This document shows, piece by piece, positions 1,543 through 16,676 of a DNA stretch of 16,676 bases. Source of the DNA: Lachnospiraceae bacterium (lineage in GTDB: Bacteria > Bacillota_A > Clostridia > Lachnospirales > Lachnospiraceae). Each line of letters opens with the position of its first letter. Within the stretch, counting starts at the first letter, position 1. The stretch is from NCBI GenBank assembly GCA_031262285.1, contig JAISHZ010000129.1, positions 1 through 16,676 on the forward strand, in the 5' to 3' direction. Position numbers and translations under genes: made by a program. The notes under the pieces were generated by a model, which saw only the letters and a program-made list of their open reading frames with translations, was not told where the DNA came from and did not search any database.

Positions 1543-1600
1543 GTCATGAGTAACAATTTTGCATATGCTTATCAGTAATGAGTTGCGAAAGGAGTATGGA

Positions 1601-2524: not shown

Positions 2525-2695
2525 ATGGCATTTGTAATTGATGATTCATGTGTATCTTGTGGCGCTTGTGCCGCAACGTGCCCGGTGGGAGCTATTTCTG
2601 ATGGTGGTTCTAAGTATGAGATTGATCCCGAAAAATGCATCAGCTGTGGTGCATGCGCGGGTGTCTGCCCGGTAGGCGCTATTTCAGAAGGCTGA
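2525..2695 (+). CDS. 2[4Fe-4S] ferredoxin, clostridial type
   Basis: The 56-residue protein carries two cluster motifs, CVSCGACAATCP and CISCGACAGVCP, each the classical C-x2-C-x2-C-x3-CP. This is the usual size and layout of low-potential bacterial ferredoxins that carry electrons for pyruvate metabolism, hydrogenases and radical SAM enzymes. AGGAGG at 2511-2516 lies 8 nt before the ATG, and the stop is followed by a strong terminator. It starts about 170 nt after pflA, so it may have its own promoter. The spacer contains a weak candidate (TTGTCT at 2407, TATATT at 2432, 19-nt spacing) that I do not trust enough to list separately. The two halves of the protein are near repeats of each other, as is typical of the family. 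Confidence 0.96.
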   Translation: MAFVIDDSCVSCGACAATCPVGAISDGGSKYEIDPEKCISCGACAGVCPVGAISEG

Positions 2696-2719
2696 AATAC
2701 TTAGTATTTATTCGTATTT

Positions 2720-2759
2720 AAAGAAAAAGACGTTCATTCTAATGAACGTCTTTTTCTTT
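2720..2759. terminator. Bidirectional intrinsic terminator between the ferredoxin gene and the dnaB operon
   Basis: AAAGAAAAAGACGTTCATT and AATGAACGTCTTTTTCTTT are perfect 19-bp inverted arms separated by 2 nt, giving a GC-containing stem with T-runs on both strands. It serves the + strand ferredoxin gene and the - strand merR-like gene. The last codons and the stop of the latter (2734-2736) lie inside the stem. Confidence 0.9.
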
Positions 2760-3426: not shown

Positions 3427-3509
3427 AAGCCAGCTCCTATCCGCGCACTTTTGGCGCTCACGCATATACAGATTAAAAAAGGATGAACAACTACTTATAG
3501 ACGGAGAAA

Positions 3510-4841
3510 TTAATGTTGAAGGTTGACAAATTTTGTATATTGAGGAAGCCAACGTAGTTCAATGGCTCCGATCGGACCATTTCGCTGTTTCGCAATATTT
3601 ACTTCTGCAATCTCTTTTTTGTCCGTATCTTTATTGTAGTAGTCGTCCCGATACAAAAACATGACGACATCAGCATCTTGTTCGATTGCGCCGGAATCAC
3701 GCAAATCGGATAAAATTGGTCTGTGATCGGGTCTTTGTTCTACTGCTCGACTCAGCTGTGACAATGCCAACAGCGGGACGCCCAATTCTCTGGCGATTGA
3801 TTTGAGCGATCTGGAAATATCGGAAATTTCCTGTTGTCGGGAGTCTTTTCTTTGCGTGCTTCCGGTCATTAACTGTAAGTAGTCGATAATGACCATCTCG
3901 ATATGATGTTCCAATTTAAATTTACGACATTTCGAGCGTAGTTCGGCAACGGTAATACCCGGGGTGTCGTCTATGATCAGATTGGAACGTCCAATCATTC
4001 CGGCACTCTCGATGAGTTTTTCCCACTCCGGATCCGTGAGTTGTCCTGTTCGTAGGTGTTGCGCGTCCACTCTCGATTCTAAGGAAAAGAGGCGGTTGAC
4101 CAACTGTTCTTTGCTCATTTCCAGACTGAATATCGCGACAGCTTTTTTTTGTCGAAAAGCCACGTGTTCGGCGATATTGAGAGCAAATGCTGTTTTACCC
4201 ATAGAGGGTCTTGCGGCGATTAAAACCAAATCTGAAGGTTGCATCCCGGCTGTGCGATAATCTAAATCAGTAAAACCGGTTGCGATACCGGTGACGACTC
4301 CTTTATTTCGAGATGCCAATTCGATTTTTTCTAAGGCATCCATGACAATGCGGCGAATGGGAACGAATTCACTAATATTGCGTCGTTGAATGAGCCCAAA
4401 TACTTTCTTTTCGGTCTCCTCCAAAATGACTTCCAGCGATTCTTTTCCGGCATAGCAGGTATTTAGAATCTCTTCGTTTAATCGAATCAATTTACGGAGT
4501 GTGGATTTCTCCGCTACGATATCCGCGTAATATTTGATGTTAGCTGTGGTAGGGACGATCGTTACCAATTCACGAGCGTACTCCAAATTGCTGACTTCCG
4601 AGGGGACATCTTTTTCTTTGAGTCGATTCTGAAGGGTGATCAAATCCACAGGATGACCTTGTTCCCATAGTTCAGCGATGGTTTCAAATAAGATACCGTA
4701 CTGACGGTTGTAGAAGTCCTCCTCCGTCAGAATACCGGCTGCGATCCCGATCGCTTCTCTGTCGAGAATCATCGCTCCGATCACGGATTGTTCCGCTTCA
4801 AGGCTATGTGGTAAGATTCTCTGCAATACATTTTCTTCCAT
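3510..4841 (-). CDS. dnaB: Replicative DNA helicase DnaB (DnaC in B. subtilis naming)
   Basis: This hexameric helicase unwinds DNA at the replication fork. The 443 residues show the N-terminal helicase domain (LPHSLEAEQSVIGAMIL, then EDFYNRQYGILFETI), a linker, and the RecA-like ATPase core. The core has TGFTDLDYRTAGMQPSDLVLIAARPSMGKT (Walker A with K216, T217), SLEMSKEQL, the Walker B MVIIDYLQLM (D320), ALSQLSRAVEQR and DLRDSGAIEQDADVVMFLYR. Length is normal and there is no intein. It starts 15 nt after the rplI stop, so the two are co-transcribed, the conserved arrangement in Bacillota. Confidence 0.98.
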   Translation of the reverse strand: MEENVLQRILPHSLEAEQSVIGAMILDREAIGIAAGILTEEDFYNRQYGILFETIAELWEQGHPVDLITLQNRLKEKDVPSEVSNLEYARELVTIVPTTANIKYYADIVAEKSTLRKLIRLNEEILNTCYAGKESLEVILEETEKKVFGLIQRRNISEFVPIRRIVMDALEKIELASRNKGVVTGIATGFTDLDYRTAGMQPSDLVLIAARPSMGKTAFALNIAEHVAFRQKKAVAIFSLEMSKEQLVNRLFSLESRVDAQHLRTGQLTDPEWEKLIESAGMIGRSNLIIDDTPGITVAELRSKCRKFKLEHHIEMVIIDYLQLMTGSTQRKDSRQQEISDISRSLKSIARELGVPLLALSQLSRAVEQRPDHRPILSDLRDSGAIEQDADVVMFLYRDDYYNKDTDKKEIAEVNIAKQRNGPIGAIELRWLPQYTKFVNLQH

Positions 4842-4856
4842 GCGGATTGTGCCTCT

Positions 4857-5303
4857 TTAGGATGATTTGACATTGATTTTGAGGGTACCTTGAACTTTGG
4901 GGTGAAGTTTGATTACGACTTCATGTAGTCCAAACGTTCTGATGTTTTCGGAAAGTTGTATTTTCTTCTTGTCCAATTCAATTTCAAATTGCGCTTTGTA
5001 CGCTTCCGCAATTTCTTTTCCGGAAATCGATCCAAATGCTTTTCCACCTTCACCGGCTTTCATATAGATAGATATTTCTTTTTCTGAAAGGGTACTAGCG
5101 AGGGTTTGTGCAGCTTCTAATAGTTTCTTTTCTTTTTGCGCAATACGTTCTTTTTGCAATTTTAAATCATTTAAATTTGCGGGGGTGGCTTCTACCGCAA
5201 GCTTTCGAGGTAGTACATAGTTTCTCGCGTAGCCATCGTTGATTTCAATGAGATCCCCTTTTTTGCCAAGGTTTTTATCGTCTTGTAACAAGATTACTTT
5301 CAT
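4857..5303 (-). CDS. rplI: 50S ribosomal protein L9
   Basis: L9 is a two-domain 23S rRNA-binding protein of the large subunit. The sequence starts MKVILLQDDKNLGKKGD and continues EINDGYARNYVLPRKLAVEAT, the signature N-domain. A long charged helix (about residues 41-75) and a C-domain ending in LHPKVQGTLKINVKSS follow. The 148-residue length is typical. The putative ribosome binding site, GGGAG about 5 nt before the ATG, is the tail of the GC-rich palindromic repeat that fills the gap to gdpP. The mobile or amplified repeat has therefore come to lie in, or to provide, the translation start region. Confidence 0.97.
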   Translation of the reverse strand: MKVILLQDDKNLGKKGDLIEINDGYARNYVLPRKLAVEATPANLNDLKLQKERIAQKEKKLLEAAQTLASTLSEKEISIYMKAGEGGKAFGSISGKEIAEAYKAQFEIELDKKKIQLSENIRTFGLHEVVIKLHPKVQGTLKINVKSS

Positions 5304-5307
5304 GCTC

Positions 5308-5441
5308 GCTCCCGTCTGCGCGCCTATGGCGCGCGTTCAAATCAAGGCGTTTGAAAGTCGCTTTCAAACATGCTCCCGTCTGCGCGCCTATGGCGCGCGT
5401 TCAAATCAAGGCATTGCCCCATCTGCGCGCCAAAGGCGCGC
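5308..5441. repeat. Tandem GC-rich palindromic repeats between gdpP and rplI
   Basis: Two identical 41-bp copies lie at 5308-5348 and 5372-5412. Each contains the palindrome GCGCGCC-TAT-GGCGCGC plus the tail TTCAAATCAAGGC. A third, shorter copy lies at 5422-5441 with loop AAA. Between copies 1 and 2, GTTTGAAAG-TCG-CTTTCAAAC (5349-5369) forms a separate perfect hairpin. On the coding strand the unit reads palindrome then GACGGGAGC. A related unit occurs at 7700-7727. The whole gap between gdpP and rplI consists of these units. Confidence 0.85.
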
Positions 5442-7493
5442 TTAGATTTCTCCGTTTTCCAACATGGAATCAATGGTCTGCTTGAGGATACCAATTGCTT
5501 CCGCCATACTCATTCCTTCAATCTGACAAGCAGCGATACTCATGTGTCCGCCGCCGCCCATGTGCTCCATGATGATCTGTACATTTACCTCGTCGATAGA
5601 TCGTGCGCTGACGTACACTTTGCCTTGATATTGTGTCAATACAAAGCTGGCTTTGATCCCTTTGATGTTGAGCAATTCGTTGGCGGCTTGTGCTCCGACG
5701 ATCGTAGGACTGGGCAAATCTTCTCCGGTACATACGGAAATCGCAAAATATTGGCGATAAATCTCTGCTTGGCTGACAGCATCCGCTTTTGCTTTGTATT
5801 CCAAAGCACCTTCGCGGAACAATTTACGGACACGAGTCACATCGGCACCGTTTCTGCGTAAAAATGCAGCCGCTTCAAACGTACGTACACCGGTTTTGCT
5901 CATAAAGTTGCTTGTATCGATCATAATACCCGAATACATACAATCCGCTTCTTCAGGTCGTATCTTAATATCATCGTACGTATATTGCAGAATCTCAGAT
6001 ACCATCTCGCATGAGGAAGAAGCATAAGGCTCTACATAGGATAATGTGGCGTTTTCTACAGTTTCTGATCCTTGTCGATGGTGATCCAATACAACGATGG
6101 ATTTGCAAAATCGTATCAGTTCGGGGCATTCGGTGATGGATGGCTTGTTGACATCTACGATGACCAGTACTGCGTTGCTGCCGACCGCTTCCATAGCTTG
6201 TTGGTTTGTTAATATCATATCATCGTCATATTCCGGGTTGTTGCGGAATAGATCTACCAAAGGTTGAATGGAAGTAGAAATATCATTTAGAACAATGTGT
6301 GTCTTGCGTCCAAGCGTCTGCGCTACCCGATAGATACCGACTGCAGCTCCGAAACTATCCACATCAGCCATGCGATGTCCCATCACCAAAACCTTATCTT
6401 TGGCTGTAATAATCTCACGCAGTGCATGAGCCTTTACGCGCGCTTTTACGCGGGTGTTTTTCTCCATTTGTTGACTCTTGCCACCGTAATAGGTGATACG
6501 CTCCGGAGTCTTGATCACCGCTTGATCGCCACCTCGTCCCAGAGCCAAATCAATGGAATTGCGTGCAAATTCGTAATTTTGTGCATAACTAAGTCCATCA
6601 ACACCGATACCGATACTCAGTGTCACAGCCATTTCATTGCCGATATTGACCGTTTTGACGTCTTCCAACAGTTCAAAGCGTGTTTCTTGAAGAGCAGAAA
6701 GTGCTTTCTTGCGCATGACGACCAAATACTTGTCCTTCTCTAACTTTTTACAAATACCGTCAATGGCAGAAACATATTTATTTACTTTTCGGTCGATTAA
6801 GGCGATCAGAAGGGATCTTCGAACCTCCTCCACACTGTCTAACGCTTCTTCATAATTGTCTAGATAGATCATACCGACAGCCAGACTTTGGTCATCTACT
6901 TCCTGCAATGCGATACGAAGTGCCGTCTGGTCAATCAAAAAAACGGAAATCATAAAACCGCCGAAAGAGGAACCATCTATGAAGTCGCTGTTTTCCATCA
7001 TGTTTTTGAGGGAAATCTTCTTGAACTTCGCTATGTAGTCGTTACCTTCATATTCTAACTGATACGCCGCTTCGTCCACACCGGAGTCGTCCGGAAGCTT
7101 GTCTCTTGTAATTGCGGGAAATACGGCGGTAATGGAACGATTGTATCCTTTGGGTTGATGAATGATCGTTTCAAAAGCTTGGTTGGTCCAGATCACCTTG
7201 CCGGAGTCGTCAAGTAAAGCGTAGGGCATCTCAAGTTCTCGTAAGACGCGTCTTTGAATCTGTCCGTATTCTGTAGCAAAGTTAATCAACTCGTTTAAAA
7301 TGATGGGTTTGTTATAAATATATAGTGTTAAAGTAACCGCTAGACAGATCAGCGTATAAACAGATGCAATCAATCCGGCATTCACATTTTGAAAGAAAAT
7401 CGCTACATCAATAAGGCACAGTAATATTAAAAGATAAAGATGAAACTGTAAGTAGGACTTGATTCTTCCTTTGAGCTTCATGTGTTTTTTCAT
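5442..7493 (-). CDS. gdpP: Cyclic-di-AMP phosphodiesterase GdpP (DHH/DHHA1 family, membrane bound)
   Basis: GdpP hydrolyses c-di-AMP to pApA and so sets the level of this signal, which controls potassium and osmolyte balance and the cell wall. The 683-residue protein has two N-terminal membrane helices (about residues 14-62, ending LTLYIYNK), a PAS-like domain (YALLDDSGKVIWTNQAFE), a degenerate GGDEF domain (around IYLDNYEEALDSVEE), and the DHH-DHHA1 catalytic half. The catalytic half shows GHRMADVDSFGAA near 372-384, IVDVNKPS, LDHHRQG (DHH at 470-472), MIDTSNF and GGGGHMSIAACQ. ATG 7493 is chosen over an upstream TTG because AGAAAGG lies 9 nt before it. The protein follows rpsR and precedes rplI, the standard order; the yybS-like membrane gene often found here is absent. 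It probably has its own promoter (7543-7548 region). Confidence 0.96.
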   Translation of the reverse strand: MKKHMKLKGRIKSYLQFHLYLLILLCLIDVAIFFQNVNAGLIASVYTLICLAVTLTLYIYNKPIILNELINFATEYGQIQRRVLRELEMPYALLDDSGKVIWTNQAFETIIHQPKGYNRSITAVFPAITRDKLPDDSGVDEAAYQLEYEGNDYIAKFKKISLKNMMENSDFIDGSSFGGFMISVFLIDQTALRIALQEVDDQSLAVGMIYLDNYEEALDSVEEVRRSLLIALIDRKVNKYVSAIDGICKKLEKDKYLVVMRKKALSALQETRFELLEDVKTVNIGNEMAVTLSIGIGVDGLSYAQNYEFARNSIDLALGRGGDQAVIKTPERITYYGGKSQQMEKNTRVKARVKAHALREIITAKDKVLVMGHRMADVDSFGAAVGIYRVAQTLGRKTHIVLNDISTSIQPLVDLFRNNPEYDDDMILTNQQAMEAVGSNAVLVIVDVNKPSITECPELIRFCKSIVVLDHHRQGSETVENATLSYVEPYASSSCEMVSEILQYTYDDIKIRPEEADCMYSGIMIDTSNFMSKTGVRTFEAAAFLRRNGADVTRVRKLFREGALEYKAKADAVSQAEIYRQYFAISVCTGEDLPSPTIVGAQAANELLNIKGIKASFVLTQYQGKVYVSARSIDEVNVQIIMEHMGGGGHMSIAACQIEGMSMAEAIGILKQTIDSMLENGEI

Positions 7494-7525
7494 ATAATGG
7501 TACCTTTCTAAAAACAAAAACGAAA

Positions 7526-7565
7526 AATCGGTTGTTTCGTACAGTATAACAAATACAAACCGATT
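7526..7565 (-). promoter_or_regulatory. gdpP promoter with extended -10 inside an inverted repeat
   Basis: On the - strand TGTTATACT (TATACT at 7543-7548) is an extended -10 element about 50 nt before the gdpP start; no good -35 is seen. It is framed by AATCGGTT (7526-7533) and AACCGATT (7558-7565), a perfect 8-bp inverted repeat whose arms lie near the expected start of transcription and in the spacer. This is the layout of a repressor operator, but no regulator can be named. Confidence 0.45.
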
Positions 7566-7699
7566 GTGCTATATCTTAATTTGTCGAAATGAACAAGGGA
7601 TTGCCGTAATTTGAGGGCGTAGCCGTGAATTTGTGTGTAGAAATTGGTGGGAGATGCAAAGTTTGAAAGTAAGGAACTATCAACCTCCTTGAGTGGTAC

Positions 7700-7727
7700 G
7701 CGCGCCGGTGGCGCGCAGGCGGGAGCA
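7700..7727. repeat. Dispersed copy of the GC-rich palindromic repeat
   Basis: GCGCGCC-GGT-GGCGCGC (7700-7716) is followed by AGGCGGGAGCA. It is the same unit as the copies at 5308-5441 but in the opposite orientation and with a different loop. Loop changes with conserved arms point to selection for, or spread of, the hairpin. Confidence 0.75.
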
Positions 7728-7748
7728 AGTGTGAAAGTTTATGACAAA

Positions 7749-7777
7749 GGGCGGCTGCTTTTGTAAAACAGTCGCCC
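7749..7777. terminator. Probable terminator after rpsR
   Basis: On the - strand GGGCGACTGTTTT-ACA-AAAGCAGCCGCCC folds into a stem of about 13 bp with one mismatch, beginning 9 nt after the rpsR stop. The T-run after it (TTTG) is weak, so termination may be partial and allow read-through to gdpP. Confidence 0.65.
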
Positions 7778-7785
7778 CATTTTAG

Positions 7786-8049
7786 TTAATCACAAACATA
7801 AGGCATGAGAGCCAAATGACGAGCACGCTTAATCGCCACCGTTAATGCGCGTTGATGTTTCGCACAGTTGCCGGTAATACGGCGAGGAAGGATCTTCCCG
7901 CGTTCCGATACATATTTCTTGAGTTTTAAGCTATCTTTGTAATCAATCACGTTATCTTTGCCACAGAAAATGCAAACTTTCTTTTTTCTGCGAAGACCGC
8001 CTCTTTTTCTGATGGGCGCGTCGCCTTTGTCTTGCCTATTAAAAGCCAT
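7786..8049 (-). CDS. rpsR: 30S ribosomal protein S18
   Basis: S18 binds S6 and 16S rRNA in the platform of the small subunit. The 87 residues contain [32 protein letters not shown] and [24 protein letters not shown], which define the family. Cys26, Cys29, Cys62 and His65 form a zinc-binding set, so this is the Cys-containing form of S18. The gene lies 22 nt after ssb with a GAGGAGG site (TGCCTCCTCC on the + strand) before the ATG, and is the last gene of the rpsF-ssb-rpsR operon. Confidence 0.98.
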
Positions 8050-8071
8050 TGTTATGCCTCCTCCTGCTTAT

Positions 8072-8536
8072 TTAATTGAAAGGTAACTCCTCGTCGATAC
8101 CATCGGGGATATTCATGAACCCTTCTCCGGCACCGGATAAAGAAGATCGGTTGGATCCTGTCGGATTGGAATAAGATCCGTAGTCACTATTGCCACCGCC
8201 GGACGCTCCTTTGCTTTCTGCAAATTCTTGGTCGTCTACGATGACTTCTGTGGTATAGACTTTTATTCCGTCTTTGTTGGTGTAACTGCCGGTCTGGATC
8301 CTGCCACTGACAGCTATCTTTGTCCCTTTGTGTAAATATTTTTCTGCGAATTCCCCGCTCTTTCCAAAAGCGACACAGTTGATAAAATCGGCGGTCTGCT
8401 CGTCGGAGTTGTTGGAACGCGCCATACGGCGGTCTACAGCCAAGGTGTATCTGGCGATTGCTAAGGGTGGTTGCGCCTGTGAGTATCTAACATCGGGATC
8501 TCTGGTGAGTCTTCCCATTAATACGACTTTATTCAT
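8072..8536 (-). CDS. ssb: Single-stranded DNA-binding protein
   Basis: SSB coats single-stranded DNA during replication and repair. The 154 residues start MNKVVLMGRLTRDPDVRYSQ and continue through an OB fold (FINCVAFGKSGEFAEKYLHKGTKIAVSGRIQTGSYTNKDG) to about residue 108. A Gly/Ser/Asn-rich linker follows, and the protein ends with the acidic tip DGIDEELPFN that recruits partner proteins. It sits between rpsF and rpsR, the conserved position, so its supply is tied to ribosomal protein synthesis. Confidence 0.98.
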   Translation of the reverse strand: MNKVVLMGRLTRDPDVRYSQAQPPLAIARYTLAVDRRMARSNNSDEQTADFINCVAFGKSGEFAEKYLHKGTKIAVSGRIQTGSYTNKDGIKVYTTEVIVDDQEFAESKGASGGGNSDYGSYSNPTGSNRSSLSGAGEGFMNIPDGIDEELPFN

Positions 8537-8587
8537 GATTGCTCCTATCTGTCTTGTGTGACAGCGTTAAATCGGGTAGTCCTATTG

Positions 8588-8878
8588 TTATGACTCGTCT
8601 TGTTTCACAACAAGATAACGAAGTACATTCTCCATGATGCGAATGCGGCTTTCGATTTCAGCCGGCGCGAAGGTCGGAGCTTTAAAGTGAATGAAGTAGT
8701 AATAAGCTTCCTTCATTTTTTGAATCTCGTAAGCAAGTCTTTTCTTGCCCCATTCATCAACTTGCAAATCTTCGCCGCCGAATCTTTCGATCAACGTTTT
8801 GCATCTGTCGATTACTGCCGTTCTCTCGTCGTCCTCGATTTTCGCGCTGACAGCGACGGCTAACTCATACTTTGTCAT
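8588..8878 (-). CDS. rpsF: 30S ribosomal protein S6
   Basis: S6 forms a heterodimer with S18 on the 16S rRNA. The 96 residues start MTKYELAVAVSAKIEDDERTAV and contain WGKKRLAYEIQKMKEAYYYFIHFKA and a C-terminal RIMENVLRYLVVK, all typical. A strong AAAGGAGG precedes the start by about 8 nt and can pair with an upstream TCCTT in the leader. With S18 encoded in the same operon, autoregulation by the S6:S18 complex is likely. Confidence 0.98.
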   Translation of the reverse strand: MTKYELAVAVSAKIEDDERTAVIDRCKTLIERFGGEDLQVDEWGKKRLAYEIQKMKEAYYYFIHFKAPTFAPAEIESRIRIMENVLRYLVVKQDES

Positions 8879-8905
8879 TGTTACAGTGCCTCCTTTTGGT
8901 CTCTG

Positions 8906-8925
8906 GCCCCCGTCCTACCGGGAGC
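8906..8925 (-). promoter_or_regulatory. rpsF leader hairpin, possible S6:S18 autoregulatory site
   Basis: On the - strand GCTCCCG-GTAGGA-CGGGGGC forms a 7-bp stem (one G-U) with a 6-nt loop in the short leader between the promoter at 8953-8981 and rpsF. The CCGGTAGG part resembles the ACCGGTGGCG of the 16S rRNA region where S6 and S18 bind. Flanking TCCTT and AAGGA can form an outer stem that would cover the ribosome binding site. The function is inferred from the known S6:S18 leader motif of rpsF operons. Confidence 0.5.
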
Positions 8926-8952
8926 AAGGAATTTGACATATCACGAACCGCT

Positions 8953-8981
8953 ATGATACCATGTTTCGGACAAGTTTTCAA
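8953..8981 (-). promoter_or_regulatory. Promoter of the rpsF-ssb-rpsR operon
   Basis: On the - strand TTGAAA and TATCAT are separated by 17 nt, close to the sigma-A consensus. The -35 box overlaps the stop codon of the DUF951 gene. Transcription would start near 8946, giving a leader of about 68 nt that holds the hairpin at 8906-8925. Confidence 0.7.
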
Positions 8982-9160
8982 GTCTTTTTGGTAATTTCGC
9001 GCACTCTTTTTTCTAAAAGTGGACGAGCGATCATGATTTGATGCTGGCACCCCAGACATTTGAGTCGAAAATCAGCACCGCTTCGTAAGACTTCCCAAGA
9101 AGCGTTTCCGCAGGGATGGTTTTTTTTGAGTGTTAAGATATCACCAATTTGGATATCCAT
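8978..9160 (-). CDS. DUF951 family protein
   Basis: The 60-residue protein reads MDIQIGDILTLKKNHPCGNASWEV, then RSGADFRLKCLGCQHQIMIARPLLEKRVREI, which is the DUF951 pattern: a small beta-rich protein with HPCG and CLGC motifs that may bind zinc. Its function is not known. It is commonly found just upstream of rpsF in Bacillota, as here. ATG 9160 is chosen over ATG 9181 because AGGAG lies between the two, 10 nt before the former, and the family begins with MDIQ-like residues. Confidence 0.9.
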   Translation of the reverse strand: MDIQIGDILTLKKNHPCGNASWEVLRSGADFRLKCLGCQHQIMIARPLLEKRVREITKKT

Positions 9161-9208
9161 GTGTTGAGTGCTCCTATTCATGTGATTGGGTTGCTGCTGT
9201 CTATTCCT

Positions 9209-9784
9209 TCAATTCTCAAGAAACTGCCGAGCTGTTTCAATATGATGCTGAAAATCAACCTTACAAAAATCTGTAGTATCTATCTTCACAACTTTGCCGC
9301 CTACATGGAAGGCATCCAAATTGCGACACCATTGATCAAAATCATGATACAAAACCTCAGTAAACAGTTTGTTTGCTTCGCCACGCTCAGAGGTGTTTTC
9401 ACGGTCAACAAATCTTTTGTGCAGGATATGTGTATCACCAATGAATTTAAAAGTGAGAGATTCGCAGCAATATTGGTCGATTAACGATCGAATCATCTTC
9501 GCTTCGTCTATATGCTTAATACCTGCGGGGACAAAGTTCCCTTCCAAAATGAGCGGGATTCCTGCTTCAAAAAGTCTCTCGGTCACATACATCATAGCGT
9601 TGAACGTGACGGCAGAAAAGCGACTGCTTTCATTTCGATCCGGAATCTTTATGTCGGAACATAACGCGATTTTAAAAGTGTCTTTTACAAAGTATGGAAT
9701 ATGTAGTGCCTCTGCTAATAAAGTTGCAAAGGTTGATTTTCCGGATGCCAGATAGCCTTCTATTAATATGATTTTATTCGTCAT
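9209..9784 (-). CDS. P-loop kinase-like protein (AAA_33/zeta-like fold)
   Basis: The 191-residue protein begins MTNKIILIEGYLASGKSTFA, a Walker A loop (G10 to T18) at the extreme N-terminus as in small nucleotide, shikimate and zeta-type kinases. Further on are LILEGNFVP, which resembles the strand and acidic residue of such kinases, and HKRFVDRENTSERG, a likely lid with arginines. The substrate cannot be told from the sequence. The best-supported statement is ATP-dependent phosphotransferase of the adenylate-kinase-like fold. GAGGT about 8 nt before the ATG is the likely ribosome binding site. No antitoxin-like partner is visible, so a zeta toxin role is not supported. It lies 48 nt upstream of the DUF951 gene. 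Confidence 0.75.
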   Translation of the reverse strand: MTNKIILIEGYLASGKSTFATLLAEALHIPYFVKDTFKIALCSDIKIPDRNESSRFSAVTFNAMMYVTERLFEAGIPLILEGNFVPAGIKHIDEAKMIRSLIDQYCCESLTFKFIGDTHILHKRFVDRENTSERGEANKLFTEVLYHDFDQWCRNLDAFHVGGKVVKIDTTDFCKVDFQHHIETARQFLEN

Positions 9785-9811
9785 AGATCCTACCTCTCGT
9801 TTATTTTCCTA

Positions 9812-9840
9812 ATTATAAACGGCAAGATTGATGAAATCAA
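9812..9840 (-). promoter_or_regulatory. Promoter of the P-loop kinase gene
   Basis: On the - strand TTGATT and a perfect TATAAT are 17 nt apart. Transcription would start near 9804, about 20 nt before the ATG. This is a strong sigma-A match. Confidence 0.75.
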
Positions 9841-9987
9841 ATGATTTGCGAAAACCAAGCAAATCGGACTATCATCCTATCGACAAAGGATTTACAAAAT
9901 GTGGTTGATTGTGTTACGCTGATTAGGGAATGGCAAGATGAAATTGTGCAGTAGCAATAGCGAAGCAAGGAGAAAGGAGTTCAGAAC

Positions 9988-10782
9988 ATGGCGGTATTAC
10001 AAGTTAGTTATTACACTACGACACTAATGAGGTCAACGGTTTTCCATGCAGTGTTACCAAATGATTTATTGCCGGATGCGAAAAAGGGAAATCCTCATTA
10101 TGAGAGACCGATGAAGACATTGTACCTCTTACACGGTTATGCCGGTAATTCCGGTGATTGGCTGTTCAACTGCAATCTCGGCGATTTGTCAGCGAAGTAT
10201 AATCTGGCGATCATTATGCCCACGGGAGAGAACAGCTTTTACTTAAATGGGAAAGGCACCGGGTCAGCGTATGAGACATTGACAGGGCAGGATCTGGTGG
10301 ATTATACCAGAAATATGTTTGGGTTGTCCTGTAAGAAGGAAGATACGTTTATCGGTGGATTGTCCATGGGGGGATTTGGAGCAATCCATACAGGTCTGAA
10401 GTATCCGGAGACTTTCGGTAAAATAGTAGGACTTTCTTCGGCGCTGATTACCGGATCCTTAAAGAATATGAAACCCGACACCAACAATGGTATCGCAGAT
10501 TATGACTACTATGTGCGGGTCTTTGGGGATTTGGAACAGGTGGAATCTGGGGAGAACAGTCCCAATTATTTAGTGAAACATCGGAAGGAAAAGGGGGACA
10601 CCATACAACCTATTTTCATTGCTTGTGGGAAAGATGACTTTTTGCTTCAAGCCAATAGGGAGTTTGTGAAAGTATTGGAGGAGCAGGGAGTGGATTGTAC
10701 TTATCAGGAGAGCGAAGGGGTGCATGACTGGCACTTTTGGAATAAAACGATTGAACCTGCGATTCAATGGTTACTTCAATGA
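9988..10782 (+). CDS. Serine esterase of the esterase D / tributyrin esterase family
   Basis: This is a 264-residue alpha/beta hydrolase. Landmarks are the LYLLHGYAGNSGDW oxyanion segment (His49-Gly50), GGLSMGGFGA with nucleophile Ser126, the acid near CGKDD (Asp216 or Asp217), and VHDWHFW with His246. There is no signal peptide, so the enzyme should be cytoplasmic. Relatives hydrolyse short-chain acyl esters such as tributyrin, acetylated sugars or S-formylglutathione. The exact substrate here is unknown; the short, intact form fits EstA-like enzymes. AAAGGAG precedes the ATG. It is a single-gene unit, divergent from the P-loop kinase gene, with its own terminator. Confidence 0.9.
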   Translation: MAVLQVSYYTTTLMRSTVFHAVLPNDLLPDAKKGNPHYERPMKTLYLLHGYAGNSGDWLFNCNLGDLSAKYNLAIIMPTGENSFYLNGKGTGSAYETLTGQDLVDYTRNMFGLSCKKEDTFIGGLSMGGFGAIHTGLKYPETFGKIVGLSSALITGSLKNMKPDTNNGIADYDYYVRVFGDLEQVESGENSPNYLVKHRKEKGDTIQPIFIACGKDDFLLQANREFVKVLEEQGVDCTYQESEGVHDWHFWNKTIEPAIQWLLQ

Positions 10783-10804
10783 AATGTTCCTTCCTCAGAG
10801 GTGG

Positions 10805-10840
10805 ACGGATATGGCTTGATCATAATAGCCATATCCGTTT
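10805..10840 (+). terminator. Intrinsic terminator of the esterase gene
   Basis: ACGGATATGGCT (10805-10816) and AGCCATATCCGT (10827-10838) form a perfect 12-bp stem with a 10-nt loop, 22 nt after the stop, followed by TTTATCGTTTG. Confidence 0.85.
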
Positions 10841-11240
10841 ATCGTTTGTGATTTTCTACTCGGACTGAGTTTCTCTAACGATGTAGTTTGTAAGAAGTTT
10901 GAGTTGTTTTGGGTAAATAAGCAGATATAGCATTAGGGAATGTCATCTAGGGAACTTGGAATAGAAGTGAACTTGGATACTTAACCTCTTTCAAACCTGT
11001 ACTACATCATGTATAAGTGAATTTAAATATCTTTATGTTATTAATTTGCGGATCACAGTAATGCTCTCAAGCGTTCTGTGTAGAAACGTAAAGATGATTA
11101 AAAACGTTTATACTAGACGTTCCGATGAGCCCGTAGAACGTAAAATACTCTTAAATATCCCCGACTCAATGCGGTTCTGTGGGTTGATAAGCTATTAAGA
11201 CGAAATTTAGAACGTTCTTTATGTTCGAAAGCAGCAATAG

Positions 11241-11423
11241 TGCAAACCACGCAATTTACCGTCCAAGGATGAGTTCCTCCGATACACTGATGGCGAGTAT
11301 TTCGAGCCGACTAAACCTTATGTCGACTTACGAGCATTCATTATCAAATCGAAGCTCAGCATACAAATGGGGATAGAGGGGTGGATGGCGATTAATGATT
11401 TGGGACTGCGGGATAAGAGATAG
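11241..11423 (+). pseudogene. Orphan protein-like open frame without a start, possible gene remnant
   Basis: Sixty codons lie open between two stops, with no plausible start codon or ribosome binding site in the first half. The translation (for example PSKDEFLRYTDGEYFEPTKP and QMGIEGWMAIND) has a natural-looking composition with many acidic and aromatic residues. I do not recognise it. The simplest reading is a remnant of a longer gene; chance is also possible. Confidence 0.3.
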
Positions 11424-11508
11424 AAATGTGTGATTTTTTTTGTCGAATTGTGAAAAATAGGAACTATAGATGGTTTTATTTTAGTGAGATAAGAGATAGA
11501 ATGTGTGA
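11412..11508. repeat. Imperfect direct repeat
   Basis: GATAAGAGATAGA-A-ATGTGTGA at 11412-11433 recurs as the same words less one A at 11488-11508, 76 nt apart. It could be a duplication scar or a pair of protein-binding sites. Confidence 0.5.
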
Positions 11509-11778
11509 AGGGGTTTGAATGTATAACATTTGTAGCGGTCTTATAGGATAATTGAATATATTTATCACGCAAATACGACTGCTCTTCGATTTTATCTCGA
11601 TGTAAGCTTGAATTTGCAATATATGTCATTAATAGCTATTGAAGAAACAGGAAACGTTTACATTTAAACTGAAAATAAGATTAGTAAAACTCATAAATAT
11701 TTGCCAATGTCATTTGCAGTTCTTGTACGAAAACAATACAGTAATTGCGAAATGGAATAGAGATAAAAACCATATAAT

Positions 11779-11800
11779 CTGATTTCTATATAGATATCAG
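11779..11800. promoter_or_regulatory. 22-bp palindrome upstream of the peptide cluster promoter
   Basis: CTGAT-T-TCTATATAGA-T-ATCAG is a dyad with 20 of 22 positions symmetric, 56 bp before the -35 box. Its size and position suit the binding site of a dimeric regulator. No regulator gene is seen in the window. Confidence 0.45.
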
Positions 11801-11855
11801 AAAATCAAATGATTTAGATTAACAGAAAAAGTTTCAGAAAATACACATATTATCC

Positions 11856-11884
11856 TTGACATATTTTGCGCTTAATGTTATCTT
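11856..11884 (+). promoter_or_regulatory. Promoter of the PqqD-like/radical SAM operon
   Basis: A consensus TTGACA (11856-11861) is followed after exactly 17 nt by TATCTT (11879-11884). Transcription would start near 11891, right at the AAAGGAG of the first gene, leaving a very short leader of about 16 nt. Confidence 0.7.
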
Positions 11885-11906
11885 AGACCAAAAGGAGTTG
11901 ATTTTT

Positions 11907-12194
11907 ATGTTAAACGATTTCGAACATATTGATCAAAAATATAGTTTTTCCAATGCCATCTCATGGCAAGTAGCAGATAATATATTTATTATTCAACATG
12001 AAATAAATAATCAGTTGTATGCTTTTGATCAAGTTGCTTTTGAAATATGCCATGCGCTCATGGTTCATGGTGAAGGCGTTATAAGCGTTATTAATAAATT
12101 AAGCATTAAATATGAAATTCCAAAGGAAGTTATACGAGATGATGTTTTACAATTTTTGAATTCTATGGTTGAAAAGGGACTTATGTATGTATAA
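11907..12194 (+). CDS. PqqD-like RiPP leader-recognition protein
   Basis: The 95-residue protein fits the PqqD / RiPP recognition element (RRE) fold. There is an N-terminal strand region (SWQVADNIFIIQHEINNQLYAF), then DQVAFEICHALMVHGEGVISVINKLSIKYEI, then a helix PKEVIRDDVLQFLNSMVEKGLMYV. These match the PqqD pattern of an 'N/D-x-x-A/G-xx-I-w-xll' helix followed by a small winged-helix C-terminus. Such proteins bind the leader of a precursor peptide and present it to a radical SAM enzyme. ATG 11907 has AAAGGAG 9 nt upstream; the open frame before it contains the promoter and is not used. Its last codons overlap the start of the radical SAM gene by 8 nt, implying coupled translation. Confidence 0.8.
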   Translation: MLNDFEHIDQKYSFSNAISWQVADNIFIIQHEINNQLYAFDQVAFEICHALMVHGEGVISVINKLSIKYEIPKEVIRDDVLQFLNSMVEKGLMYV

Positions 12195-13242
12195 ACTTGA
12201 TAATGATTTTGATAGCGATTTTATCACGCTGCTTGCGCATGAAAAAAATATACCGATGTATGTATCAATTGAGTTACTGACAAGTTGCAATTGGAATTGT
12301 GCACATTGTTATTTAGTCAATCATTCCAACTCGGGCATATCACAAGCAAAAATATTTCAGATTTTTAATGAACTAAGAAATTTAGGAACAAAAGACTTAG
12401 TTTTAACTGGTGGCGAGATTTTCACACGACCCGACATTATGGATATTATTAGCAGAGCGCGCAAAATGGGTTTTCGTGTAAGTTTGTTTAGTAATGCGTC
12501 GTTATTAAATGAAAATATAGTTGATAAATTAGTCGAATGGGCAGTTTACGAATATTCGTGTACAATTTTTTCAATTGTGGATGAGGTTCATGATAAATTA
12601 ACTGGAGTAAATGGTTCGTTAAAATGTGTACTGAAAAATATTAAATTGCTCATGTCGAAGGGTGTAAACGTTGAAGTGAAAACTCCATTAATGATGATGA
12701 ATTATGATACACTACAAGAAACAAAAAAATATTTTGAAGATTTGGGTGTAAAATATGCAATAAATCCAAATATAAGCTTGAAAATGGACGGGTCGGAAAC
12801 AACTAAGGAATTTAGGCTAAATGAAGAATTACTTAGAGGTGTTCTGCCATCTATTGATAATGTCGATGATTTTCGTACATATAGTGACTTAAACAATGAA
12901 ATATGCCCGAATTTGCGATATACGATGACTATAGCTGCAAATGGTGATATCTTTCCATGTAGTTCGTTTTATATGCCTGTTGGTAATGTTTACAAGAAAT
13001 CTTTACATGATATTTGGAATAGTCCTTATTATGTAGACTTGAGAAGTCTACGGCGTAATTCGTTAAAAAATTGTGCGGACTGTGATGATTATGATTTTTG
13101 TTCGTTTTGCCCGGGTACTGCATATTTAGAAGGAGGAGATATGCTAACTTGTTGCGACTCAATAAAGCTAGCTTCTCATATAGGAAGAGATGTTTATTAT
13201 GCAAAACATGAAAAGGAGAGTAAAAATGGAAAACAAGTATGA
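12187..13242 (+). CDS. Radical SAM/SPASM peptide maturase
   Basis: The 351-residue protein holds a radical SAM domain: SIELLTSCNWNCAHCYL with cluster cysteines Cys34, Cys38 and Cys41, then LVLTGGEIFTRPD with the SAM-binding GGE at 75-77. A C-terminal SPASM domain follows. Cys240-x12-Gly253-x4-Cys258, Cys296-x2-Cys299-x5-Cys305-x2-Cys308 and Cys322/Cys323 would bind two auxiliary [4Fe-4S] clusters. The segment GNVYKKSLHDIWNS is typical of SPASM proteins. Enzymes of this type make thioether or carbon-carbon links, epimers or similar changes in RiPP precursors. ATG 12187 is preferred to TTG 12169: AAAAGGGA lies just upstream and the start overlaps the PqqD-like gene. The gene is clearly more AT-rich than the housekeeping genes, suggesting transfer. 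The bond it makes cannot be told from the sequence. Confidence 0.92.
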   Translation: MYKLDNDFDSDFITLLAHEKNIPMYVSIELLTSCNWNCAHCYLVNHSNSGISQAKIFQIFNELRNLGTKDLVLTGGEIFTRPDIMDIISRARKMGFRVSLFSNASLLNENIVDKLVEWAVYEYSCTIFSIVDEVHDKLTGVNGSLKCVLKNIKLLMSKGVNVEVKTPLMMMNYDTLQETKKYFEDLGVKYAINPNISLKMDGSETTKEFRLNEELLRGVLPSIDNVDDFRTYSDLNNEICPNLRYTMTIAANGDIFPCSSFYMPVGNVYKKSLHDIWNSPYYVDLRSLRRNSLKNCADCDDYDFCSFCPGTAYLEGGDMLTCCDSIKLASHIGRDVYYAKHEKESKNGKQV

Positions 13243-13387
13243 AAAGCCAGAATTAAAAGCAGCAAAGATGCTCCCGATTACAATGTGTAAGCATGCAATA
13301 TGTAATGGGAAATCTCACATAGTCACAACACCGGAATTAAAACACGAGTTGAGTGCTATAATTCTTAAGGATGAGAAAGTTGCATAA
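13226..13387 (+). CDS. Candidate RiPP precursor peptide, 53 residues
   Basis: The ORF has a good ribosome binding site (AAAAGGAG about 7 nt before ATG 13226) and overlaps the end of the maturase gene by 17 nt. The N-terminal part MENKYEKPELKAAKMLPI resembles the leaders seen beside PqqD/radical SAM pairs (the YEKPEL type). The middle and C-terminal part has Cys21 and Cys26 (MCKHAICNGKSHIVTTPELK) followed by Ser30, Thr35 and Thr36 and a charged tail ELSAIILKDEKVA. Cysteines N-terminal to possible acceptor residues would suit a sactipeptide- or ranthipeptide-like thioether hairpin, but this is speculation. No double-Gly cleavage site is present. Position, size and neighbours are the main evidence; no family match is claimed. 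Confidence 0.75.
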   Translation: MENKYEKPELKAAKMLPITMCKHAICNGKSHIVTTPELKHELSAIILKDEKVA

Positions 13388-13418
13388 TCTTGTGAACTGA
13401 TTAGTTGACTTTGTGAAA

Positions 13419-13468
13419 AATGAATGAACGAGATTGCATTTATTGTAGTGCAATCTCGTTCATTCATT
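13419..13468 (+). other. Perfect 20-bp hairpin between precursor and transporter genes
   Basis: AATGAATGAACGAGATTGCA and TGCAATCTCGTTCATTCATT form a perfect 20-bp stem with a 10-nt loop, 31 nt after the precursor stop and 15 nt before the transporter start. No T-run follows. It probably protects the precursor mRNA 3' end or attenuates read-through, so that precursor is made in excess over the transporter. Confidence 0.7.
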
Positions 13469-13483
13469 GGAATGGAATTTAAT

Positions 13484-15307
13484 ATGATAAAAAGGATTTT
13501 GTCTTTAATTAAATTACTAATTACGTTATCGCCTTTGCAGGTCATACTAAAAATTATCTTACAGATTTCGTTGGGACTTCTTGGCTCTATGGGGATCCTT
13601 TTTTTGCAAAATGCTATTGATGCAATTGGCGGTTTTATAAAAAATGAAAATAATGGCTATATTGCTCAAATATGGTGCGGGGTATATGTTGTTTCGTTGT
13701 TGGTAGTTGCAGTTGGGAATAATTACATTAATCATACACTCAACATCTCACTTAAGAGAAAACTGAATGATAAAATGGCATCTACTATTATAGATAAACT
13801 AAAAAAAATTGATTACGCCTATTATGAAAGCAAACGATTTCATGATACCCTTGCGCGTATGTCTGATGCACCGGAGGAACAGTTATTTAGTCTGTTTTCG
13901 GATTTGTGTGAAATCGGCGCAAGTTTTGCCGGTGTGTTGGGTTTAGCAGTGATTTTTTTCCAAGCTAATGCGTTATTTGTCATTAGCTTTGTGATCCTCT
14001 TTACGCCGACTGTTTTTCTGATGTTTCGTATTGAAGATATACTAGAAGAAATGTATGATGACCAAACGCCCGACGAACGTGAACTAGGCTACTTATCTGA
14101 GCTTATGGCGAATAAGGATTCGCTAACCGAATTCAAGGTATTCCAAGCATTTCAATACATTGCTAAAAAATGGAATGCCAAGGCGGATATTGTTACAGAG
14201 GAAAGACGTAAAACGGTAAAGCGAGCTGAAATGTATGCCTTCCTGTCCAGTGCTTTGTTACAGTTATGGACGATCAGCACGATAGTTGCGCTTGTCATGC
14301 TTGCGATCAACGGCATACTGACATTCGGAACACTGGTTGCGTTGGCGGCTTCGACTGAAGCTATGATAGCGACCGCCGGGGAATTTTCATTGTTTGCGCG
14401 TGAATTGAGAGCAAATTTAAATATACTGAAGCATTATTTCAAATTCATGAAATTACCTAATATGCCTTTCGAAAAAAGCGTCGCCATATATAATAAACCG
14501 TCTTTTTCAACAATCGAATTTAAAGATGTATTTTTTAAATATCCGGAATTTGACGATGAAGGGAATGTTATCACAAATAGCGATGAAAGCCATGCAGTAT
14601 ATGTTTTGAACGGCTTTAATGCAACCTTTCACACCCAAAAGCATACAGCAATTGTGGGTACCAACGGAAGCGGAAAATCTACAATTGTGAAATTGTTGCT
14701 TGGCTTATATCAACCAAACAAAGGAGAAATTCTTGTGGATGGTCGCAATATTTCAAGCATACCACGTGAGGAGCTTCGCAAATCGTTTTCAGTGCTGTTT
14801 CAAGATTATGGGAAATATCAATTTTCTGTTCGTGAAAATGTCGCGTTACATAACACGAGCAAAATGGATTGTGACCTAGCGATCAAACAAGCATTACGCG
14901 AGTCGGAGTCCGATTCAAAACTTAGCGAAAACTTGGATATGCCATTAGGTAAGCTGGCTGCGGAAGGCATCGGATTATCCGGTGGAGAGTGGCAAAAAAT
15001 TGCATTGGCACGTTCGTTTTTCGAACAGCGTGATGCGTCACAAAATGAGAAATTTGTCATTTGGGACGAACCGACCGCAAGCTTAGATGCCATAGCGGAG
15101 AGCAAACTCTACGATGGACTTTTGAAGCGATTGGACGGAAGCGGCGGAATCATTATTTCACATAGACTGGCGAGCACGCGGTTGGCGGATGAAATTATCG
15201 TTCTGGAAGATGGAAAAACGATTGAAATGGGTGGATTTGATGCATTACTGGCTGCAGATGATCATTTTGCCAAAATGTTCGAAAGTCAACGCGAATGGTA
15301 TGGATGA
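13484..15307 (+). CDS. ABC exporter half-transporter (fused permease and ATPase), first of a pair
   Basis: The 607-residue protein begins with several hydrophobic helices (about residues 10-320, for example LQISLGLLGSMGILFL and GASFAGVLGLAVIFF). It ends in a nucleotide-binding domain: Walker A GTNGSGKST at 392-400, signature LSGGEWQK at 498-505, Walker B FVIWDEPTASLD with Asp528-Glu529, and the H-loop in IIISHRLAS. No N-terminal C39 peptidase domain is present, so it would not cut the leader itself. ATG 13484 is chosen because it lies just 3' of the hairpin with a GGAATGGA sequence before it; the longer frame from 13424 would start inside the hairpin. Exporters of this type next to radical SAM RiPP genes usually export the mature peptide or give immunity. 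Confidence 0.9.
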   Translation: MIKRILSLIKLLITLSPLQVILKIILQISLGLLGSMGILFLQNAIDAIGGFIKNENNGYIAQIWCGVYVVSLLVVAVGNNYINHTLNISLKRKLNDKMASTIIDKLKKIDYAYYESKRFHDTLARMSDAPEEQLFSLFSDLCEIGASFAGVLGLAVIFFQANALFVISFVILFTPTVFLMFRIEDILEEMYDDQTPDERELGYLSELMANKDSLTEFKVFQAFQYIAKKWNAKADIVTEERRKTVKRAEMYAFLSSALLQLWTISTIVALVMLAINGILTFGTLVALAASTEAMIATAGEFSLFARELRANLNILKHYFKFMKLPNMPFEKSVAIYNKPSFSTIEFKDVFFKYPEFDDEGNVITNSDESHAVYVLNGFNATFHTQKHTAIVGTNGSGKSTIVKLLLGLYQPNKGEILVDGRNISSIPREELRKSFSVLFQDYGKYQFSVRENVALHNTSKMDCDLAIKQALRESESDSKLSENLDMPLGKLAAEGIGLSGGEWQKIALARSFFEQRDASQNEKFVIWDEPTASLDAIAESKLYDGLLKRLDGSGGIIISHRLASTRLADEIIVLEDGKTIEMGGFDALLAADDHFAKMFESQREWYG

Positions 15308-15318
15308 GGTGTTTCTAA

Positions 15319-16676
15319 ATGAATACTTTTGCTTATATTTATAAGTTCTTTTTTAAAAAATTACCTAGTGCGTGTATTGTGCTTTTCGCATCTTTATTGG
15401 TTTCTGCAATGGTTCCATCCGCATTGACCATATCGTCCGCGCATTTATTTGACTCGGTATTCGCCATTGTATCACAGCAGCAAGATGCTTCTGCCAAAAT
15501 GCCAACGGTGTTCTTTTTTATGTTTTTATATCTTGGGGTTTACTTATTTGATAATATTTTGGGTTCTCGTGCCGATTTGATTAAGAATGCCGACATTTTT
15601 AATAAAGGAAGTATGTATTTTAAGTCGCAGCTGAACCAAAAAACACTCGAAATCCCGATTATCAACTATGAAAACGCTGATTTCCTCAATGAGTTAGAAG
15701 CAGCAAAAAAAGCAGTTGAGGGAGAGAAAATGTCCTCTTTGTTCTACAGCCAGGCGGAAGCACTCGGAGCGCTTATCGCGCTACTTGGTATTTGTATAAC
15801 GGTTGGAAGTATTAACTGGATGTTGCTTCCTATTAGCGCGTTGTCGCTTGCCCCCTATTTCATAACTCGTATGTTGCGCGGTCGCGACTATGACAAATTG
15901 AAAAGAATACAATTACCGGAACATAGAAAAAAGACATATTTGTGGAAATTGTTCACAGGATCCAGTTCTGTGAAAGAAATGCGGGTTTCAGGATTTAGCG
16001 ATTTCATTTTCAATAAATGGGAAAATACTCGAAAGGAAATTAGGGACAAAGCTTGGGCGATTGAAATGAAAGATGCAAAGATACTTGTTCTTTGCTCCCT
16101 TATACAAGCAATCGGTTTTGCCGGCGCATTTGGGATATTGCAATATTTAACGTATCATAGAAACATTACAATTGGTGAATTCGGTGCAATGTGTATTGCG
16201 TTTAAAGCATTGCAGGATTCAATGAAAAACTTTTTGTATCAAACGGGACGATTGAAAATAACGATGTCCGAGGCGAGCGATTTTATAAGGTTTATGAATC
16301 GTAAATTCAATATGGATGTCGATATTGGCGCAAATGCCACGCCAAATAGCATTTTTCATTCCACGTATAAGGAGAGAGATGGAGATAGTGTAATGCCATG
16401 GGCGAGACTCACAGATGTTTGCTTTGATTATCCGGGAAGCAGCGGTCACGCTATTGACCATGTGAATATGGAAATCAAACGAGGCGCTAAAACAGCAATC
16501 GTCGGTCTCAATGGAAGCGGTAAAAGTACACTGGTAAAGCTTTTACTTGGACTTTATGAACCATCCGTTGGGGTGATCGAACGTTATGGCAATGACGCAT
16601 CCGATGAGAAGAAAGAGCGTTTGGGTAATGACCCATCCATAAAGAATGAGACCGGCGTTGACGAAAGCTTGCAGAA
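15319..16676 (+). CDS. ABC exporter half-transporter, second of a pair, 3' end outside the window
   Basis: The start is ATG 15319 with GAGGTG 7 nt upstream and 11 nt after the first transporter. The 452 visible codons are open to the window edge. Hydrophobic segments (ACIVLFASLLVSAMVPSAL, TVFFFMFLYLGVYLF, ALGALIALLGICITVG, ILVLCSLIQAIGFAGAFGI) form the membrane domain. The Walker A GLNGSGKST lies at 396-404, after an inserted linker (around NATPNSIFHSTYKERDGDS). The signature and Walker B are beyond the window. Adjacent non-identical half-transporters normally form a heterodimer, so this is probably the partner of the previous protein. The stretch after Walker A is charged and polar (NDASDEKKERLGNDPSIK), longer than usual before the Q-loop, which could be an insertion. 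Confidence 0.88.
   Translation, partial: MNTFAYIYKFFFKKLPSACIVLFASLLVSAMVPSALTISSAHLFDSVFAIVSQQQDASAKMPTVFFFMFLYLGVYLFDNILGSRADLIKNADIFNKGSMYFKSQLNQKTLEIPIINYENADFLNELEAAKKAVEGEKMSSLFYSQAEALGALIALLGICITVGSINWMLLPISALSLAPYFITRMLRGRDYDKLKRIQLPEHRKKTYLWKLFTGSSSVKEMRVSGFSDFIFNKWENTRKEIRDKAWAIEMKDAKILVLCSLIQAIGFAGAFGILQYLTYHRNITIGEFGAMCIAFKALQDSMKNFLYQTGRLKITMSEASDFIRFMNRKFNMDVDIGANATPNSIFHSTYKERDGDSVMPWARLTDVCFDYPGSSGHAIDHVNMEIKRGAKTAIVGLNGSGKSTLVKLLLGLYEPSVGVIERYGNDASDEKKERLGNDPSIKNETGVDESLQ

Follow-up and report, generated by a model that had tools for sequence, protein, structure and literature searches.

A probable radical SAM peptide gene cluster of a Lachnospiraceae-like bacterium with a precursor akin to the streptococcal KIS and SSH families

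Introduction

Operons for ribosomally synthesized and post-translationally modified peptides that depend on radical S-adenosylmethionine enzymes (RaS-RiPPs) consist of a precursor gene, the RaS enzyme, sometimes a RiPP recognition element (RRE) protein, and transport functions, according to the available part of PMC8092268. In the available part of a 2026 review (PMC13361665), 16 streptococcal RaS-RiPP subfamilies are named by core motif and the streptococcal families are described as quorum-linked. Two subfamilies, SSH and KIS, appear there as 'function not characterized', with KIS listed for Streptococcus suis. SSH and KIS are not mentioned in the accessible part of PMC12445099, and a literature search of titles and abstract starts, with subscription papers outside its coverage, returned no report of an SSH or KIS product. 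Here we analyzed a DNA stretch of 16,676 bases deposited as a Lachnospiraceae bacterium (contig JAISHZ010000129.1; the window, which is the entire contig). Its right part carries a candidate RiPP gene cluster, cut at 16676, whose precursor resembles those of KIS and SSH.

Results

We consider it likely that the window holds a RiPP operon of a Lachnospiraceae-like bacterium, in which a precursor peptide would be modified by a SPASM maturase and exported by two ATP-binding cassette (ABC) half-transporters. From position 11,907, five genes follow each other on the + strand, encoding a PqqD-like protein, a radical SAM/SPASM maturase, a precursor of 53 amino acids (aa) and two ABC exporter subunits. 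The features of the cluster are:

11856..11884, + strand: candidate sigma-70-type promoter (TTGACA, 17 nt, TATCTT, with TG ahead of the second hexamer; 10 of 12 matches)
11907..12194, + strand: PqqD-like leader-binding protein (RRE), 95 aa (ATG 11907; PF05402)
12187..13242, + strand: radical SAM/SPASM peptide maturase, 351 aa (ATG 12187; PF04055, PF13186)
13226..13387, + strand: RiPP precursor peptide, 53 aa (NCBIfam KIS match; hidden Markov model (HMM) built without the window; CNGKSH)
13419..13468, + strand: hairpin with a perfect 20-bp stem and a 10-nt loop (arms 13419-13438 and 13449-13468, 20 of 20 pairs)
13484..15307, + strand: ABC exporter subunit 1 (ABC1), 607 aa (PF00005; alternative start 13424)
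15319..16676, + strand: ABC exporter subunit 2 (ABC2), cut by the contig end inside the ATPase domain (PF00005)

All visible frames are open and are preceded by purine-rich ribosome sites, as judged by eye. The pqqD and maturase genes overlap by 8 nt and the maturase and precursor genes by 17 nt; the precursor ATG (13226) is preceded by AAAAGGAG. The original prediction, made from the sequence alone, had described a radical-SAM RiPP cluster with a discrete PqqD-like protein, a SPASM maturase, an overlapping small open reading frame (ORF), a hairpin and paired ABC exporters, and Pfam, NCBIfam and the ORFs confirmed these parts. It had also spoken of a 'complete minimal RiPP operon'; the listed parts are there, but 'complete' is too strong for a cluster with its right end missing.

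Within the precursor, a leader with YEKPEL is followed by a core around C21KHAIC26NG28KSH31 and a C-terminal extension of ~20 aa. The NCBIfam model for KIS RaS-RiPPs (NF050044) matched it with E = 1.5e-6 (27.7 bits), aligning residues 5-48 to model positions 9-52 of 55. The motif CNGKSH is common to the precursor and a true KIS peptide (P0045), and a 29-residue alignment with a KIS remnant (L095) contains 10 identities. Scored with an HMM of 26 relatives from which the window was left out, the precursor ranked first among 238 small ORFs of the window (33.2 bits, E = 3.8e-10; next 9.1 bits). This HMM is not wholly independent of the window, because 12-15 of the 26 peptides came from a profile search whose alignment included it. 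Removal of the KIS peptide changed little (31.8 bits, E = 1.2e-9), and in a shuffle control the real precursor reached 33.4 bits versus a maximum of 11.9 in 5000 shuffles. Given the HMM rank, E value and shuffle controls, the precursor call is far above chance and places the peptide in a wider KIS/SSH-related group as defined in this analysis. On this evidence it appears to be a distant relative of the uncharacterized streptococcal RaS-RiPP families KIS and, more weakly, SSH.

Relatives of the cluster were reached via the maturase because the precursor search returned only itself. Besides the maturase itself, 22 proteins matched at E = 1e-10 or better. Searches by tblastn matched 195 plasmid records, one of which was examined (a Macrococcoides plasmid), and 26 phage records; 27 loci in viral contigs were at most 28% identical, and the window precursor had no tblastn match in these contigs. 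From genome contigs, 80 of 293 loci were kept and the neighbourhoods of 15 of the 80 were read; in the family of an Acetatifactor metagenome-assembled genome (MAG), maturase relatives occurred in 5 of 397 genomes, two of which were already among the loci. Nine of the 15 neighbourhoods contained a C-x-G peptide (L003, L007, L009, L011, L012, L013, L014, L015 and L026) and two a peptide of another type (L035 and L062); L002, L010, L040 and L051, which are affected by contig ends or broken frames, yielded none. A pattern scan for peptides covered all loci then at hand except Streptococcus L004, L005, L006 and L008; most other matches were chance-like and were dropped by eye. Counting L001, L134, L135, L136 and L137 (L137 being the L015 locus), thirteen relative loci had a peptide gene.

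These relatives, from Macrococcoides, Streptococcus, Lactococcus, Paenibacillus, Clostridiales and Lachnospiraceae, combine a SPASM maturase with a small C-x-G peptide, and most also carry an adjoining PqqD-like gene and an ABC exporter. Their peptides (28 to 55 aa from the starts used for the HMM set) can be aligned by their [YF]xKP leader and C-x-G core. When this alignment was used for a profile search, 22 proteins were returned at E = 10 or better; among them P0045, with E = 4.2, is not significant alone, and is a full KIS peptide by NCBIfam (106.6 bits, cut-off 70). Of 27 distinct precursors including the window, 26 (all but P0037) have C-x-G and 24 have [YF]x[KQ]P, the exceptions being L013, P0044 and P0045; these counts are not independent of selection because the relatives were partly picked by that motif. 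Lack of precursor conservation in homologous loci had been named beforehand as a point that would speak against the cluster; both the alignments and the HMM found the precursor conserved.

The peptides of L035 (9018-9128) and L062 (2780-2905) represent another related precursor type, in which a leader with KKP or VKP is combined with a core containing two Cys (HCTQIKEC, HCHQVKDEC). Their maturases, upstream of the peptides (442 and 443 aa), were read as carrying a fused N-terminal PqqD-like part.

Two layouts were distinguished. In the SSH-type layout (L001, L003, L007, L009), pqqD is followed by maturase 1, the precursor, maturase 2 and then a single exporter (505 to 527 aa); the precursors of L001, L003 and L009 reach the SSH cut-off, and L012 has the same layout with a peptide under it (19.9 of 45 bits). 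The window lacks two maturases flanking the precursor: it has one, and ABC1 comes after the precursor. Together with L013, L014 and L134 it shows one pqqD gene, one adjoining maturase gene and two exporter genes whose products measure 595 to 609 aa (ABC2 of the window being cut). The PqqD-like gene and the exporter pair, offered originally as distinctive, therefore recur in three relatives. In the window and L014 the precursor gene sits between the maturase and ABC1 genes; in L013 it precedes pqqD, and in L134 it does so too, with a transposase separating the two. Each of the four loci has a two-Cys core, CX2-4C-x-G. Cores with two Cys also occur outside this layout: C-x-C-x-G in L012, L026 and three similar database peptides, and CSGC in L135.

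Several side observations were made at these loci. Before the Paenibacillus tuaregi cluster (L013, 3764-7433) lie genes for another radical SAM protein, for a 76-aa protein with no Pfam match, and for a subtilase (PF00082, 42.9 bits) that also contains a DUF1611-like part; these are candidates for extra maturation and leader-peptidase genes. A further match of the L013 precursor (7487-7579), to the model for the CLI_3235 bacteriocin precursor (TIGR04065, 19.4 of 26 bits), hints at a common leader type. At L014 (7622-7969), the C-terminal extension of the PqqD-like protein ends in SSSCIVGGSHNGVR, resembling related precursor cores; this may be chance. The first of two maturases at L135 (4874-5887) is split into two frames, with the second maturase, the PqqD gene and the precursor open.

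Domain assignments were clear for both biosynthetic proteins, each scanned from residue 2: the PqqD-like protein matched PF05402 with 33.4 bits (gathering threshold 23.4), and the maturase matched PF04055 with 70.5 bits (29.5) and PF13186 with 54.9 bits (21.5). The maturase has CX3CX2C at C34/C38/C41, and its Cys 240, 258, 296, 299, 305 and 308 are invariant in an alignment of 17 sequences. Its predicted structure had a mean predicted local distance difference test value (pLDDT) of 88 and a predicted template modelling score (pTM) of 0.86. Membership of the maturase in a characterized family had been named beforehand as another point against the proposal; the maturase scored far under the cut-off of each model among the best 25 of 70 NCBIfam models (best 102.6 of 500 bits). 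In the tree it stood outside a 22-row group (support 94/92, not starred) that contains the enzymes from those two-maturase loci that entered the tree. The best sequence matches among solved structures were SkfB (6efn; E = 5.6e-11) and 5v1q (E = 1.1e-10).

ABC1 carries the Walker A motif GTNGSGKS, the signature LSGGEWQK and WDEP. Its start is most likely the ATG at 13484; a longer frame from 13424 was rejected because that start falls inside the hairpin. ABC2 matches PF00005 with 47.7 bits and has the Walker A motif GLNGSGKS. A Pfam scan found no C39 peptidase domain in ABC1 or the visible part of ABC2, so that the proposed transporter pair without C39 peptidase stands. Among 14 exporters compared, ABC1 was nearest to ABC1 of L134, L013 and L014 (26 to 27% identity, E = 3e-63 to 2e-54), followed by ABC2 of the same loci (E = 3e-51 to 7e-41). 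It was far from the single exporters (best E = 9e-14), and the exporter adjoining the KIS remnant in L097 was the most distant of those compared (E = 7e-7).

The proposed promoter at 11856-11884 has the stated hexamers and ranked first in a list of 14 sites, one other of which also had 10 of 12 matches; promoter-like sites are not in excess (14 versus 14.9 expected from shuffles), and it is kept as a candidate. A TTG start of the PqqD gene at 11856 was rejected, this TTG belonging to the -35 hexamer.

The hairpin begins 31 nt after the precursor stop codon. Folding of 13385-13500 gave a z-score of -7.2, with none of 200 shuffles equally stable, and the window had no Rfam match at the gathering threshold. 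A classical terminator was rejected because the T-run is absent; the hairpin was not scored as one. A perfect stem of at least 10 bp (10 to 20 bp), starting at most 60 nt past the precursor stop, was found in 11 of 14 precursor loci, the window counted. As background, the mean longest stem in these loci was 5.4 to 6.2 bp per 150-nt stretch, and 1-8 of 119-225 stretches per locus equalled the hairpin, counting those that overlap the hairpin itself. No common sequence was seen among the stems of different loci. The hairpin is probably an expression device.

The GC content is 0.29 to 0.36 in the pqqD, maturase and precursor genes, 0.40 in the ABC genes and 0.44 for 1-10782. Biosynthetic genes are likewise AT-rich compared with their flanks in L014 (0.39-0.44 versus 0.57), L134 (0.24-0.29 versus 0.40), L136 (0.34-0.37 versus 0.45) and L137 (0.29-0.30 versus 0.46); the contrast is unclear in L012 and L003, and L013 is lower throughout only versus its right flank. 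The reported difference in base composition between the first genes and the housekeeping region holds, but because several relatives in other hosts are also AT-rich, low GC is weak evidence for the recent acquisition that had been drawn from it. Occurrence is sporadic: the 5 of 397 genomes mentioned above matched with E 1e-42, and only the centre genome itself was matched among 391 and among 398 genomes of two classes (E 1e-45). The sporadic distribution and the plasmid copy fit horizontal spread, which is undated.

Left of 10,782, translations gave what we take to be housekeeping genes: the end of pflB, pflA, dnaB, rplI, gdpP, rpsR, ssb and rpsF. The presumed GdpP protein had its best two matches, among 14 genomes searched, in the L015 genome (Acetatifactor MAG, 74% identity) and the L051 genome (Lachnospiraceae MAG, 64%), which makes a Lachnospiraceae host probable. 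About 1.1 kb of AT-rich DNA with no obvious gene (10783-11906, GC 0.34) separates an esterase gene from the cluster. Between the presumed rplI and gdpP lies a 55-nt direct repeat (5297-5415; two copies 64 nt apart, 91% identical), which contains CGCGCCTATGGCGCG. No peptidase, regulator or immunity gene was read among the ORFs beside the cluster, where no search aimed at these was made. For Rgg in particular, the reading covered ORFs left of the cluster, with no regulator search, and the right side ends at 16676.

Discussion

We propose the following pathway. The PqqD-like protein would hold the precursor leader (YEKPEL region) and bring it to the maturase. There, the radical SAM/SPASM enzyme would abstract hydrogen in the core C21-KHAI-C26-NG28-KSH31, most likely making one or two crosslinks that are Cys-based (thioether-type), for which Cys26 and Gly28 would be the fixed points. 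A protease encoded outside the visible cluster would remove the leader and the C-terminal extension, and the product would be exported by the two ABC half-transporters, which may also give self-protection. The hairpin would raise precursor mRNA relative to exporter mRNA, by stabilization or partial termination.

Several observations weigh against this reading. The precursor missed the cut-offs of both named models (KIS, 27.7 of 70 bits; SSH, NF050043, E = 0.031, 13.9 of 45 bits), and its single-sequence search of a 5.8-billion protein set matched only itself. The PqqD-like protein is only 16 to 26% identical to 11 aligned PqqD-like proteins of related loci. The maturase forms a long single branch (best identity 39% in the tree set of 44 rows), and no starred tree set of up to half the rows includes it. 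The enzymes of same-layout relatives stand apart from it: those of L013 and L134 fall into a different set of six rows (88/55), and that of L014 joins the outgroups (94/94). Because they group elsewhere, the layout is common to these loci but one common single-maturase lineage is not supported. L001, L003 and L007 have no perfect long stem past the precursor (5 or 6 bp); L001 and L003, both folded, form imperfect long stems there. Finally, crosslink and export are deduced from family membership.

Possible, though we lean against it, is that the cluster is a divergent true member of the KIS subfamily, a Streptococcus suis product type that moved to another host. The NCBIfam match (E = 1.5e-6), the 10 identities with the L095 remnant, and CNGKSH followed by a C-terminal tail with IIL, common to the precursor and P0045, speak for it. 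Yet 27.7 bits is well below 70, the KIS peptide carries an additional, third Cys but no [YF]xKP leader, and the exporter beside the KIS remnant is the one most distant from ABC1 (E = 7e-7). The KIS maturase itself lies outside the comparison because no intact KIS locus was found. NF050044, searched in 245 genomes (G001 family) and 284 genomes (G104 genus), gave one remnant (L095/L097) and one chance-like match (L096), and searches of plasmids, phages and viral contigs with P0045 gave nothing credible (no tblastn match, or E no better than 3). The remnant in genome G104 (L097, ~5005-6815) consists of the C-terminal 31 residues of a KIS precursor (51.3 bits) behind a stop, and an ABC exporter frame comes next; we place the remnant, on our assumed gene names, between ksgA and rsgA. 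The maturase had no match in the G104 genome at E = 1e-10, in a search without positive control.

It is rather improbable that the product is a signal or cofactor-like molecule instead of a bacteriocin-type RiPP, with the exporter pair serving signalling or immunity. Such a role would agree with the quorum link of streptococcal families in the available part of PMC13361665, and no immunity or lysis gene was read in the ORF list. Neither was a receptor or quorum regulator read beside the cluster, where no specific search was made, and the cores vary among loci, resembling diversifying products more than a fixed cofactor. A decayed or non-functional cluster is highly improbable: the genes are AT-rich, the contig ends inside ABC2 and broken relatives exist (the first maturase of L135, the KIS remnant of L097), but the visible frames are open with overlapping starts and, by eye, purine-rich ribosome sites, and the radical SAM and SPASM Cys, the Walker A, signature and Walker B motifs of ABC1 and the Walker A motif of ABC2 are all present.

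Our favoured reading stays with a RiPP operon of a Lachnospiraceae-like bacterium. The original prediction held that its class could not be named with certainty. Both precursor cut-offs are indeed missed and the product chemistry is uncharacterized, but the class can be named in part, since the precursor is a member of the wider KIS/SSH-related group. What is new is a variant at the edge of the KIS/SSH kind that misses both cut-offs, has a KIS-like C-terminal extension, and has no Rgg read beside it (none was searched for). The KIS/SSH core, and the SSH leader and enzyme types, are common to clusters in Lachnospiraceae, Paenibacillus, Lactococcus and Macrococcoides. These clusters form a natural variant set (one versus two maturases, one versus two core Cys, with or without C-terminal follower), and the residue modified by each enzyme is therefore directly testable.

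More tentatively, and with some doubt, KIS and SSH may be streptococcal twigs of one broad Bacillota RiPP class, whose members would combine a Cys-x-Gly core with a [YF]xKP leader bound by a free PqqD-like protein. In the single-maturase layout (window, L013, L014, L134), one SPASM enzyme might then make two crosslinks from CX2-4C-x-G, and the C-terminal follower of the window and KIS might be removable. We know of no precedent for the ring topology of two crosslinks from such a core.

Comparison with known systems

SkfB (6efn) and 5v1q, which we take to be SuiB, the streptide maturase, are very distant from the window maturase, and their chains (412 and 459 residues) are ~60 to 110 residues longer. 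The tryglysin (WGK) system shares with the window a RaS enzyme, a discrete RRE protein and a transporter, according to the available part of PMC8092268. It differs in its precursor, and the WgkB maturase and WgkC PqqD-like chaperone models score 78.6 of 650 and 20.4 of 110 bits.

KIS (NF050044) shares with the window a two-Cys core with CNGKSH and a C-terminal extension of ~20 aa with an IIL stretch. In contrast to the window, whose precursor is under the KIS cut-off, the KIS peptide has a third Cys past the motif and no [YF]xKP leader; the exporter beside the KIS remnant is distant from ABC1, and the window, in which no regulator search was made, has no Rgg read. SSH (NF050043) loci differ: they encode two maturases and a single exporter (505 to 527 aa), and their precursors carry one core Cys and a short tail. 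They share with the window the PqqD-like gene, the SPASM maturase, the [YF]xKP leader, the C-x-G-x-S...H core and an ABC exporter.

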